Part shown: positions 37,607 to 41,211 of the stretch, one piece after another
Layout of the letters: every line of letters begins with the position of its first letter
How positions within the stretch are numbered: the stretch's first letter is position 1
Assembly (NCBI GenBank): GCA_017440805.1
Contig: JAFSGN010000018.1
Location: forward strand, 1 to 64,000
Direction of reading: 5' to 3'
Length of the DNA: 64,000 nt
Source: Clostridia bacterium
GTDB taxonomy: Bacteria; Bacillota; Clostridia; Oscillospirales; SIG627
Translations under genes and position numbers: made by a program
The notes under the pieces: generated by a model
What the model was told of the DNA's origin: nothing
The model's database searches: none
The model's input: the letters and a program-made list of their open reading frames with translations, nothing else

Positions 37607-38257
37607 ATGGATAACCGTATTTGCAGATATACCACTGTTTTCTGGGACTGGAACGGCACTTTGTTTGATGATGTGTCCTCTTCTCTTGAGGCAGTAAATA
37701 TCATGCTGAAAAAAAGGGGACTTGACGCAATTTCCCTTGTCACATTCAGGTCGGCGGTAGATACACCTATAATTAAGTTTTACCGTGAGTTTTTCGATAT
37801 GGAAAAGGAAGAATTTTCGGCTCTGTCGGCGGAATATCACTCACTTTACGAGCAACTTGCCCTTTCAAGCCCTCTTGCAGAGGGAACACAAACCGTTCTT
37901 GAAACCCTGAAAAAACAGGGTGTCCGCCAGGTGATTGCATCTTCAAGCCATACACAGCAGATTGAAAAACTTATAAAACGGTTTGGTATAAGAAATTATT
38001 TTGACGGTATTCTGGGTGCAGACGATTATTTTGCTTCAGATAAAATTTCGAGAATACGGGAGTATATGGAGAAAAATTCCCTTTGCCCCGAAAAGACGGT
38101 TTTTGTGGGAGATACGCCTCATGATGCACAGGTTGCAGACAGTGTGGGGTCACAGTGCGTTATGGCATTGTGGGGAAGCAAAAACCCCCATGAACTTGAA
38201 GGACTGGGAGACACTGCCGAAAATATGGCACAAGTTCTTGAGAAAATGTTTGAATAG
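37607..38257 (+). CDS. HAD-superfamily hydrolase (phosphoglycolate phosphatase-like)
   Basis: This 216-residue HAD hydrolase has motif I FWDWNGTLFDD (near 13; nucleophile Asp and general acid Asp replaced as DxN), motif II ASSSHTQ (near 103), and motif IV VFVGDTPHDAQVADS (near 165). The cap helices follow motif I, so it is a subfamily I enzyme like PpaX or Gph. The second Asp of DxD is Asn here, as in some relatives. It starts 3 bases after uvrA. Substrate cannot be told from the sequence. Confidence 0.85.
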   Translation: MDNRICRYTTVFWDWNGTLFDDVSSSLEAVNIMLKKRGLDAISLVTFRSAVDTPIIKFYREFFDMEKEEFSALSAEYHSLYEQLALSSPLAEGTQTVLETLKKQGVRQVIASSSHTQQIEKLIKRFGIRNYFDGILGADDYFASDKISRIREYMEKNSLCPEKTVFVGDTPHDAQVADSVGSQCVMALWGSKNPHELEGLGDTAENMAQVLEKMFE

Positions 38258-38265
38258 GAGAGAGT

Positions 38266-39516
38266 ATGTCAATTATCGAACAAAACAACAGAACCCGCTC
38301 ACACTCTTTTGAAAAAATACCTCTGCCGTCTGTTCTGTCAGTTCCGCTGACACTTGACGGATACACCGCAACTCCCGTTGTAAAGGCGGGGGACAAGGTT
38401 AAAAAGTATGAAAAAATTGCCGTGGGAGATTATATCGTTCACTCTCCCGTATCGGGTACCGTTCAGGCGCTAAGCGATGAATATGCGGTTATAAAAAACG
38501 ATTTTCGGGAAACAACGGCTGAATTGATTCCCGAAACAAAAACCATTCAGGAACTTTCGTCGGAAGAGTTGTGTCAGAGGGCATACCAAAGCGGAATCTG
38601 GTGTAAAACCCGCAAAGCCCCCCTTGACAAAGCCATATCCGAGTGTGCCGGAAAAGTGTCCCGGGTTATTATAAATCTTTGCGAGGGACAGCCTTTTGTA
38701 AGTTCCGCGTACCGCTTGTGCCTTGACAACATTGACGCCGTTCTGGGCGGAGCAAAAATTCTTATGAAAGCCTGCGGAGTACGGCGGGCGGTTATAGCGG
38801 TTGATTTGAAGAATTTCCGGCTTATAAAACTGTTGCGTGAAAAATGCGGAAAATCGCCGCTTTTCAGTATTAAAGTAATAACACGGGGATATCCGTCGGA
38901 AAACCCCAGACGGCTTGTATATATTGTTGACGGAGTGGAAAGCGAAAACGGAAAAAATCTTGCCCTGCAGGGCTACGGAGTTTTCGGAGCACGGGAATGT
39001 TATGATTTTTACACTGCCCAGGTCAACCGTACTCCCTCTGTAAACTGTTTTGTTACGGCAGAGGGCGACTGTATTTCAACCCCCAAAAATATAATAGTGC
39101 CCATAGGTACTTCCGCCTCGTATATCGCGGAATGTTGCGGAGGGTACATAAAAGAACCTCACAAAATTATAAGCGGAGGGGCATTTGACGGAGAGGCACT
39201 CTGGGATTCTGACCAGCCTGTAAACAAGGATTCAACAGCGGTTGTATTCCTTTCCGATGCCTATGTGAAAAAAACCGGGACCGCCTGTATAAAATGCTCA
39301 CGGTGTGTAAAATATTGCCCCATGTTCCTTATGCCCTTGAAGATTGCAGAGGCACATTCAAAGGGAAAGACCGAAAAATGCAAAGAACTGGGTGCAGAAA
39401 GTTGTATTCAGTGCGGTATTTGTTCCTATGTCTGCCCTGCCAATATTACCGTGACACAAAAAATGGCACAGGCAAAAGACGCGGTAAAGAACAAAGAAAA
39501 CCCAACGGTTTTTTAA
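38266..39516 (+). CDS. RnfC-like subunit with intact Fe-S clusters but lost flavin/NADH motifs
   Basis: This 416-residue protein aligns with RnfC. It has the N-terminal barrel (VVKAGDKVKKYEKIAVGDYI, HSPVSGTVQAL), the middle domain (GGAKILMKACGVRRAVIAV, GTSASYIAECCGGYI) and the C-terminal 4Fe-4S pair CIKCSRCVKYCP and CIQCGICSYVCP. RnfC normally binds FMN and NADH through a Gly-rich GGAGFPT segment and an ECEP-type motif. At those places this protein reads SGIWCKTRKAPLDK (near 110) and NLCEGQPFVSS (near 140). So Fe-S ligands stay while the nucleotide site looks lost. It lies 8 bases after the HAD gene and 10 before the RnfD-like gene. Confidence 0.85.
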   Translation: MSIIEQNNRTRSHSFEKIPLPSVLSVPLTLDGYTATPVVKAGDKVKKYEKIAVGDYIVHSPVSGTVQALSDEYAVIKNDFRETTAELIPETKTIQELSSEELCQRAYQSGIWCKTRKAPLDKAISECAGKVSRVIINLCEGQPFVSSAYRLCLDNIDAVLGGAKILMKACGVRRAVIAVDLKNFRLIKLLREKCGKSPLFSIKVITRGYPSENPRRLVYIVDGVESENGKNLALQGYGVFGARECYDFYTAQVNRTPSVNCFVTAEGDCISTPKNIIVPIGTSASYIAECCGGYIKEPHKIISGGAFDGEALWDSDQPVNKDSTAVVFLSDAYVKKTGTACIKCSRCVKYCPMFLMPLKIAEAHSKGKTEKCKELGAESCIQCGICSYVCPANITVTQKMAQAKDAVKNKENPTVF

Positions 39517-39526
39517 GGAGATGCTT

Positions 39527-40516
39527 ATGGAAAGAAAACTTTTGAATGTGTCCCATTTTCCTCATATACGGCATCAGGACACCACAAGAAGTATTATGGG
39601 TGATGTAATAATTGCCCTTGTTCCGTCGCTTATATGGGGCGCGTATATTTTCGGTGTCCGTGTTCTTTCGGTTGTGGCGGTATCGGTGTTGAGTTGCGTT
39701 ATAAGCGAGGCGGTATTTTGCCTTGTTTTGCGGAAAAATCAGACTGTCGGCGACCTTTCGGCAGTTGTTACGGGAATTATACTGGCGTGTACTTTCCCTG
39801 CGGCAGTTCCCTTGTGGATACCTGCAGTTTCGGGAGTTTTTGCAATTGTATTTGTAAAACAACTTTTCGGCGGGATAGGAAAAAACATTTTAAATCCTGC
39901 GGCAGCGGCAAGAGTTCTTGCTTGCTTGTTTCCTCAGACCGAAAGATATTCACTGCCGTTTGAAAAACTTCCCGTTTTGGCGGAGGTTTCACCCGAGGGA
40001 CTCGTTTCAGAGGCGATTTACGACCTGAAAGACGGAATTATCCCCCCGATTTCACTGTTTGATATGTTTATCGGAAATTCTGTGGGCGGAATAGGCACGG
40101 TTTCCTGTCTGCTTCTTGTTGCGGGTGGACTTTACCTTGTTGTCAGAAAGATTATTTCTGTGCGTATACCTCTTGCTTTTTTACTGTCTGCAGCGGCAAT
40201 GTTCTATTTGTTCCCCAAAAACATAATGACCGAAGAATATATGATTTATCATCTTTTGTCGGGCGGACTTGTTTTCTGTTCGATTTTTATGGCAACCGAC
40301 TTTTCCACCTCACCCATGACCGGCACATCAAGAATAATTTTCGGTGCGGGATGCGGTGTGATAACGGTGTTTTTGCGGTATATGGGTTTTGAGGGAGTGT
40401 ATACGGCACTTATAATAATGAATTTGTCTGCAGGACTTCTTGACCGTATAACACTGCCCCGACCTTTCGGAAAAGTTTTGTCGAGGAACAAAAAAACCAA
40501 ACAACCCGAGGAGTAG
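39527..40516 (+). CDS. RnfD-like membrane subunit lacking a flavinylation motif
   Basis: This 329-residue membrane protein has RnfD hallmarks: an N-terminal FPHIRHQDTTRSIMGDVIIA, about eight to ten helices, and GGIGKNILNPAAAARVLACL near 125. MATDFSTSPMTGTSRIIFG (near 260) also fits. ATG 39527 is 6 bases after AAGGAG. Canonical RnfD covalently carries FMN on a Thr of an (S/T)(G/A)AT-type motif just before the SLFDMFIGN-like segment. Here that place reads GLVSEAIYDLKDGIIPPIS, with no such motif. Electron flow through flavin is therefore doubtful. Sits between the RnfC-like and RnfB-like genes. Confidence 0.85.
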   Translation: MERKLLNVSHFPHIRHQDTTRSIMGDVIIALVPSLIWGAYIFGVRVLSVVAVSVLSCVISEAVFCLVLRKNQTVGDLSAVVTGIILACTFPAAVPLWIPAVSGVFAIVFVKQLFGGIGKNILNPAAAARVLACLFPQTERYSLPFEKLPVLAEVSPEGLVSEAIYDLKDGIIPPISLFDMFIGNSVGGIGTVSCLLLVAGGLYLVVRKIISVRIPLAFLLSAAAMFYLFPKNIMTEEYMIYHLLSGGLVFCSIFMATDFSTSPMTGTSRIIFGAGCGVITVFLRYMGFEGVYTALIIMNLSAGLLDRITLPRPFGKVLSRNKKTKQPEE

Positions 40517-40519
40517 GCC

Positions 40520-41122
40520 ATGAAACAAACAGCAATAATACTCATATTTGCCGTTGTGGGAATAAGGATTTATTTCATAATTAAAGAGTATTTACAAAAG
40601 AAAAACGATACTCAAAAGAAAAGCGACTTATGTGCCCAGGTTATGTGCGGAGGAAATAACAGCGTTTCCAGAATAAAATATAATTATGATTCAACCCCCG
40701 ACTGCCGTGAGGCGTCAAAACTTCACGGCGGACCGAAACTGTGCAGTTTCGGGTGTGTCGGAATGGGTACCTGTGCTTCGGTATGCCCTATGCACGCAAT
40801 ACATATCATAGACGGAATTGCAGCAGTTGACAGGTCAAAATGTGTCGGATGCGGAGCCTGTTTAAATGTCTGTCCGAAAGGAATTATCCGCCTTGTTCCC
40901 CGCAGTAATACCTGCTGGGTCGGATGCAGTAATACTGCATCCCGGGAATATACCGAGGCGGTATGTAAAATAGGCTGTACGGGATGCGGTGAGTGTGTTT
41001 CGGCTTGTCCGTCGGGTGCGATATCAATAAAAGACGGGGTTGCAGTTACCGACAATAAACTGTGTGAGGGATGTTGTAAGTGCATTGAAGTCTGTCCCAG
41101 GAAAACCATCTGGAAAGCGTAA
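40520..41122 (+). CDS. RnfB-like ferredoxin subunit missing the N-terminal NCGACG Fe-S domain
   Basis: This 200-residue protein has one N-terminal membrane helix (IILIFAVVGIRIYFIIKEYL). The polyferredoxin half of RnfB follows: DCREASKLHGGPKLCSFGC, CVGMGTCASVCP, CVGCGACLNVCP, GCTGCGECVSACP and CEGCCKCIEVCP. The order and spacing match RnfB. Canonical RnfB (about 260-330 residues) has, between helix and ferredoxin part, a domain with a CGACGYPGC cluster; that domain is absent. It starts 3 bases after the RnfD-like stop. A strong terminator follows, and no rnfG, rnfE or rnfA is present. Confidence 0.85.
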   Translation: MKQTAIILIFAVVGIRIYFIIKEYLQKKNDTQKKSDLCAQVMCGGNNSVSRIKYNYDSTPDCREASKLHGGPKLCSFGCVGMGTCASVCPMHAIHIIDGIAAVDRSKCVGCGACLNVCPKGIIRLVPRSNTCWVGCSNTASREYTEAVCKIGCTGCGECVSACPSGAISIKDGVAVTDNKLCEGCCKCIEVCPRKTIWKA

Positions 41123-41160: not shown

Positions 41161-41211
41161 AAAGTCCGCAACTCATAAGATGGTGAGTTGCGGACTTTGT
41201 GCCTTTTTTAG
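41161..41211. terminator. bidirectional terminator between the Rnf-like cluster and 41214
   Basis: A perfect 15-bp stem, AAAGTCCGCAACTCA (41161-41175), 8-base loop, TGAGTTGCGGACTTT (41184-41198), is followed by CTTTTTT on the plus strand (41202-41208). It serves convergent transcripts. Confidence 0.9.

Follow-up and report, generated by a model that had tools for sequence, protein, structure and literature searches.

What can an rnf operon still do once rnfG, rnfE and rnfA are gone from it? The question is raised by a cluster of three genes, similar to rnfC, rnfD and rnfB, at positions 38266–41122 of the window, that is, of the whole analysed stretch of 64,000 nucleotides from contig JAFSGN010000018.1 of Clostridia bacterium (GenBank assembly GCA_017440805.1). 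Rnf is treated as an all-or-nothing pump of six subunits encoded by rnfCDGEAB, and a genome bearing rnfC or rnfD is commonly counted as Rnf-positive. We tentatively read the cluster, with a little less than even confidence, as a "half-Rnf": the output arm formed by RnfC and RnfD, together with a trimmed RnfB, that would have arisen by deletion of rnfG, rnfE and rnfA and been kept under purifying selection. The evolutionary pattern of reduction is well supported; the function as an electron conduit is a proposal made from sequence.

Absence of the other Rnf components

A first-pass annotation of this DNA had described an uninterrupted C-D-B cluster closed by a strong terminator, and both points hold. 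The three frames are open throughout, nearly abut and match their family profiles, and a hairpin with a T-run follows rnfB (Table 1). The genome containing the window (G000) is 1.58 Mb long, consists of 22 contigs and is 94% complete. The genome-wide search that the first-pass annotation had proposed gave no match in it to RnfA/E (PF02508), to RnfG/FMN_bind (PF04205, even at E-values up to 1) or to the flavin transferase ApbE (PF02424), while E. coli, B. ihuae, T. maritima and M. acetivorans, taken as controls, gave matches in these searches. The single other PF01512 protein of the genome is a NuoF-type subunit encoded beside a group-A6-like NADH-dependent [FeFe] hydrogenase. Hence, this NADH-linked hydrogenase, not Rnf, may join the pools of NADH (reduced nicotinamide adenine dinucleotide, NAD) and ferredoxin.

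Subunits of the cluster

The RnfC protein matches TIGR01945 (rnfC) with an E-value of 8e-69, slightly below the model cut-off. Its AlphaFold2 (AF2) model has a predicted local distance difference test score (pLDDT) of 86 and VIA Z of 38–42 against RnfC structures. The binding site for flavin mononucleotide (FMN) and NAD is replaced: GxGGAxFP became CKTRKAP, and NAxECEP became NLCEGQP. All ligands of the two [4Fe-4S] clusters (C341, C344, C347, C351, C380, C383, C386 and C390) are kept. The same eight cysteines are present in 26/26 reduced clusters considered below, whereas the FMN loop is kept in only five (G005, G006, G009, G010 and G020).

RnfD of the window matches TIGR01946 (rnfD) with an E-value of 1.5e-64, above the cut-off, and PF03116 is its sole Pfam domain. 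The AF2 model (pLDDT 83; Z 35–39 against RnfD structures) has the ten-helix RnfD fold with the riboflavin contacts. The SATPL motif, which carries the threonine of the covalent FMN, is missing. The two contact residues, N125 and D260, are kept, and the position of the latter is occupied by Asp or Glu in most of the 26 reduced clusters. RnfD of the window has probably kept the non-covalent riboflavin, judging from these residues.

The model of RnfD also resembles AmtB and urea transporters (Z about 12–13). This likeness would suit a redox-gated channel, in which RnfD, having the ammonium/urea-channel fold, conducts a solute or an ion now that FMN is lost, with the Fe-S clusters of RnfC controlling the gate; without covalent FMN, the periplasmic half of the pore would be empty. 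We consider such a channel improbable, as the fold is common to all RnfD and NqrB proteins, all of them constricted (PMC12174285), and nothing points to an open pore in RnfD of the window.

Models of RnfB match the third protein with an E-value of 3e-37, covering the C-terminal polyferredoxin alone. The central 4Fe-4S domain, PF04060, is found in canonical RnfB and in none of the RnfB proteins of the window and of genomes G001, G005, G009 and G010. Of 24 cysteines common to canonical RnfB, only the four belonging to PF04060 are lost in the window protein, and the other 20/20 are kept; the loss is identical, with 20/20 of the rest kept, in these four relatives. RnfB and RnfD are fused into one protein in G005, G009 and G010. 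The fusions, at L035:7112-8671, L037:1147-2703 and L038:7091-8653, come from two genera.

A lost motif in each subunit and intact 4Fe-4S ligands in RnfC and the ferredoxin half of RnfB were both part of the first-pass annotation, and both agree with these results: the FMN/NAD loop, SATPL and PF04060 are gone, and 28/28 Fe-S cysteines of RnfC and RnfB together (8/8 and 20/20) remain. The losses are concerted, each feature lost from C, D or B being paired with parts missing from the genome. The same annotation supposed that the complex no longer couples to NADH or flavins. For the window genome this is right as far as NADH and FMN binding by RnfC is concerned, although not every relative has lost NADH coupling, because five keep the FMN loop. 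"No flavins" is an overstatement, because N125 and D260 of RnfD are kept.

As the Fe-S ligands are the best-kept feature and riboflavin contacts of RnfD vary in some relatives, RnfB and RnfC could instead form a cytosolic ferredoxin/Fe-S hub serving a cytosolic enzyme, with RnfD a mere anchor. PrdC, which transfers electrons to proline reductase, is a precedent of an RnfC homologue working outside Rnf. RnfC of the window scores 78 bits with the PrdC model TIGR04481 and does not reach the cut-off of 490, and no proline reductase genes were seen beside the window cluster. PrdC is not known to have an RnfD partner. In contrast, RnfD is always kept in the reduced clusters with its full-length fold, its conservation between G000 and G001 exceeds that of RnfC (54% vs 44%), and no common enzyme gene adjoins the clusters. 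We thus regard the hub as unlikely, if less so than the channel.

Reduced clusters in related genomes

Twenty-two genomes of the family of the window (f1) were compared. RnfD is present in 22/22, and RnfA/E is missing in 10/22. Among these 10 reduced genomes, FMN_bind is missing in nine and ApbE also in nine; ApbE is present in 10/12 canonical ones. The exception in both cases is G009, where FMN_bind and ApbE are located together, at a separate locus on another contig; there, a protein of 683 aa containing two FMN_bind domains is encoded near the apbE gene (L145:5800-7851). The reduced layouts are C-D-B in G000 and G001, C followed by the D-B fusion in G005, G009 and G010, and C-D, with RnfB lost, in G002, G006, G014, G020 and G021. 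The C-D-B arrangement proposed as a system in the first-pass annotation does recur, but the conserved core is C-D, because RnfB is often lost too.

The order-wide survey comprised 396 genomes, each at least 85% complete. RnfD was found in 359/396 and RnfA/E in 334/396. By hand reading of the survey tables, a divergent RnfD of the reduced type, located away from contig ends in a genome without RnfA/E, was counted in 20/396 genomes (8 from f1, 9 from f19 and 3 from f20); G366 was dropped since a contig end truncates its RnfD. The loci from f19 consist of C-D pairs, most of which, in several genera, have DUF4364/nth upstream and an RlmCD-like methyltransferase (TRAM) downstream; L177, L181-L185 and L188 are C-D pairs lying between DUF4364/nth and this RNA methyltransferase gene. 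Frames are intact in about 26 reduced clusters. An alignment-based scan of named genomes for reduced RnfD revealed no reduced clusters: nearly all of the 80 loci were canonical, and the rest were cut by contig ends. No partner gene is shared across the reduced clusters except for a lipoprotein gene, which is also present in canonical operons.

The distribution bears on the most conservative explanation, an ordinary Rnf with the missing subunits unassembled or too divergent for detection. The genome is only 94% complete, and very divergent A/E proteins exist in some paralogs of the order. However, RnfA/E is gone from 10/10 reduced f1 genomes, and RnfG and ApbE, from 9/10; RnfB has lost precisely its A/E-docking domain; and no open frame remains between D and B of the window cluster, whose operon closes with the terminator. 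Such an oversight is therefore very improbable.

Several other arrangements were observed in the order. Genome G238 (99% complete) carries apbE-C-D-G with all FMN motifs intact and without A, E and B, away from a contig end (L192:5652-9475, with a 142-aa frame after rnfG). It resembles a half-Rnf in a flavinylated form, which could deliver electrons from NADH to the cell exterior. Rnf paralogs of the C-D-E-A composition, most of them without recognisable rnfG, were found at L044, L045, L046, L047, L048, L146 and L191. Most or all [2Fe-2S] cysteines of their RnfA and RnfE are lost, and they may form a second class of widespread Rnf derivatives, predicted to lack the membrane cluster. A ribulose-phosphate epimerase gene lies near L044, L046 and L047, and a MecA-like gene, near several such paralogs. 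Three reduced clusters encode a hydrophobic protein of 177–179 aa after RnfD (L178:7439-7972, L180:5513-6046 and L173:7589-8128); it has no convincing match in Pfam and is perhaps a degenerate RnfA. In G006 and G020, spoIIAA-spoIIAB-sigF is located 66–68 bp upstream of the reduced C-D pair (L036:4519-6028 and L041:944-2396). Sporulation as a general function was rejected: SpoIVA is encoded in nearly all compared genomes, whether their Rnf is canonical or reduced, and sporulation genes lie near none of the other reduced loci.

Origin by repeated deletion

In G002, G005, G009 and G014, the lipoprotein gene comes after RnfD or the D-B fusion, and its product in these four reduced clusters is homologous to that of the gene downstream of rnfB in the canonical G004 and G012 operons (E-values down to 4e-19). 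This argues that the ancestral f1 unit was probably C-D-G-E-A-B-lipoprotein and that the reduced clusters arose from it by deletion in place. The system "distinct from Rnf" of the first-pass annotation is, then, better described as a derivative of canonical rnfCDGEAB. The lipoprotein-like family, which follows both canonical and reduced rnf clusters in f1, weakly resembles Lumazine_bd_2/DUF4878/DUF5105 (L034:7215-7862, L035:6447-7115, L037:2682-3368, L039:6617-7261, L143:4606-5421 and L135:4287-5024). It is a possible extracytosolic partner of Rnf.

In the RnfC trees, canonical G018 groups with the reduced members of its own genus. A single clade of all reduced f1 rows is rejected in the RnfC tree (p-AU 0.00017), with the caveat of long branches, and the f19 clade stands apart (96/95). 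Taken together, these observations indicate that reduction happened several times, as judged from the RnfC tree, which leaves the place of the window genus itself unfixed.

Selection on the retained genes

The ratio of nonsynonymous to synonymous substitution rates (dN/dS) was estimated by the NG86 method; no reliance was placed on estimates whose dS exceeds about 1. Three f19 pairs have unsaturated dS. For G116/G146, dN/dS equals 0.11 for C and 0.13 for D, with 0.09 for the neighbouring housekeeping methyltransferase; for G245/G293 it equals 0.22 and 0.30, and for G335/G181, 0.29 and 0.24, respectively. Values of 0.11–0.30 in close f19 pairs demonstrate purifying selection. For the genus of the window, where the estimates are all saturated, dN/dS is 0.13 for C, 0.23 for D and 0.16 for B.

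These values matter for the possibility of a relict in decay, that is, a recent deletion of rnfGEA with the three leftover genes unused and not yet interrupted by stops. The reduced proteins diverge fast and form long branches, and losses are stepwise, B being gone in G002, G006, G014, G020 and G021, as a decaying system might be expected to look. Against this, dN/dS is low in the unsaturated pairs of relatives, none of the 28 Fe-S cysteines is lost in the window, the C-D core was retained after repeated independent losses with frames intact, and the f19 neighbourhood is conserved across genera. A relict is hence unlikely, somewhat less probable than the cytosolic hub. The first-pass statement that this is not simple decay is supported, and the dN/dS comparison that the annotation called for shows purifying selection on the cluster type where it recurs in relatives.

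Proposed electron path

In Rnf, electrons pass from ferredoxin to the RnfB clusters, the central Fe-S domain of RnfB and the [2Fe-2S] cluster of RnfA/E, and then via FMN in RnfG, FMN and riboflavin in RnfD and two [4Fe-4S] clusters of RnfC to FMN and NAD (PMC11889175, PMC12174285). The retained RnfC clusters and riboflavin site of RnfD constitute the output half of this U-shaped path, with or without the polyferredoxin. In the half-Rnf, reduced ferredoxin would donate electrons, one way, to the polyferredoxin of RnfB; they would proceed to the [4Fe-4S] pair in RnfC, then to riboflavin in RnfD and, finally, to a putative membrane or extracytosolic acceptor. Such a complex should be able neither to form NADH nor to pump ions through the known A/E mechanism. 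In Rnf, cavities of RnfC hold the cytosolic tails of RnfD, and therefore a polyferredoxin fused to RnfD would be tethered beside the RnfC clusters; the RnfD-RnfB fusions of relatives would thus fit a one-way conduit. The C-D arm can apparently stand alone, because G238 carries it without A, E and B.

Several facts weigh against the half-Rnf. The clusters of RnfB and RnfC are more than 30 Å apart in the full complex (PMC11889175), and the B-to-C step would therefore need a rearrangement. RnfB is missing from many reduced clusters, so entry of ferredoxin electrons via RnfB is not universal. No conserved neighbour gene hints at the acceptor among the reduced clusters compared, and the riboflavin contacts are altered in relatives G002, G372, G245 and G293. 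The unsaturated dN/dS pairs are all from f19, none from the genus of the window. Identity between the window and G001 is 44% for C, 54% for D and 50% for B, with 85% for UvrB and 83% for UvrA. The constraint seems real but looser than that on canonical Rnf, because the reduced proteins evolve fast.

Gene neighbourhood

The uvrB, uvrA and HAD-family hydrolase genes have the same direction as C-D-B. The gaps are 1–8 bp, which together with the shared direction argues for a probable transcription unit uvrB-uvrA-HAD-C-D-B; judging by the spacing, the HAD gene is probably co-transcribed with C-D-B. In G001, a genome of the same genus, the order is uvrB-uvrA-C-D-B, and the HAD gene is missing.

Table 1. 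Features of the reduced rnf cluster and its surroundings (positions in the window).
Feature	Position	Strand	Remarks
HAD-family hydrolase gene	37607..38257	+	8 bp upstream of the rnfC-like gene, directly 3' of uvrB-uvrA
rnfC-like gene, 416 aa	38266..39516	+	profile matches; AF2 model with RnfC fold
Position of the FMN/NAD loop (canonical GxGGAxFP)	38593..38634	+	here GIWCKTRKAPLDKA; lost
C-terminal region of RnfC	39286..39435	+	8/8 Cys of two [4Fe-4S] clusters
rnfD-like gene, 331 aa	39521..40516	+	profile matches; AF2 model with RnfD fold
Asn of the NPA motif, N125	39893..39895	+	A. woodii RnfD N123; riboflavin contact, kept
Asp of the FMATD motif, D260	40298..40300	+	A. woodii RnfD D249; riboflavin contact, kept
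rnfB-like gene, 200 aa	40520..41122	+	N-terminal hydrophobic stretch and C-terminal polyferredoxin, without PF04060
Polyferredoxin part of RnfB	40631..41113	+	20/20 Cys common to canonical RnfB
Intrinsic-terminator-like hairpin	41161..41198	+	16 pairs, then T-run; ends the C-D-B unit

Comparison with known systems

The cluster resembles Rnf (C. tetanomorphum, 7ZC6; A. woodii, 9ERI) in the folds of RnfC and RnfD (Z 35–42), the two [4Fe-4S] clusters of RnfC, the polyferredoxin of RnfB, the riboflavin contacts of RnfD and the gene order C-D-..-B. It differs in the absence of the RnfA/E pump, RnfG and ApbE, as well as of the covalent FMN motif in D, the FMN/NAD loop in C and the central 4Fe-4S domain in B. 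Two-subunit Nqr/Rnf-like systems, described by Meheust et al. in 2021 (PMC8238504) and in a 2024 follow-up (PMC10979944), are a reduced set around RnfD/NqrB. They likewise have no A/E half, are proposed to conduct electrons one way and have a D subunit without the FMN threonine. However, their D is fused to PF00175, and they have a flavinylated RnfG-like subunit and ApbE, whereas the window cluster uses RnfC and RnfB, has no flavinylation machinery, and its RnfD has no fused NAD-binding domain PF00175. Na+-NQR (NqrA-F) is also an Rnf derivative; its NqrA, a homologue of RnfC, does not bind FMN or NAD, and riboflavin in NqrB relays electrons inside the membrane. In contrast to the window cluster, which keeps the Fe-S clusters and has lost A/E/G, NqrA lost its Fe-S clusters too, and the A/E/G core was kept.

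None of the Nqr/Rnf-like systems, NQR and PrdC matches C-D(-B) without flavinylation. No published C-D or C-D-B cluster was found in searches of an open-access library, and a description elsewhere is possible. It is conceivable, although more doubtful than the half-Rnf assignment of this cluster, that RnfC-RnfD(-RnfB) constitutes a new class of membrane conduits, formed repeatedly from dismantled Rnf, which would pass electrons from ferredoxin via the RnfC clusters and non-covalent riboflavin of RnfD to an acceptor in the membrane or outside the cytosol, with no pump, NADH formation or flavinylation.

The C and D genes persist under selection without the pump in 20/396 genomes (about 1 in 20) of an order of gut Clostridia, and therefore a Rnf-positive score for such genomes can be mistaken. 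That A/E/G/ApbE were lost repeatedly and independently while C-D stayed amounts to a natural dissection of Rnf and points to a function of the C-D arm of its own. Moreover, it is debated whether RnfD transfers electrons only or provides an ion path, and a minimal C-D system allows this to be tested.

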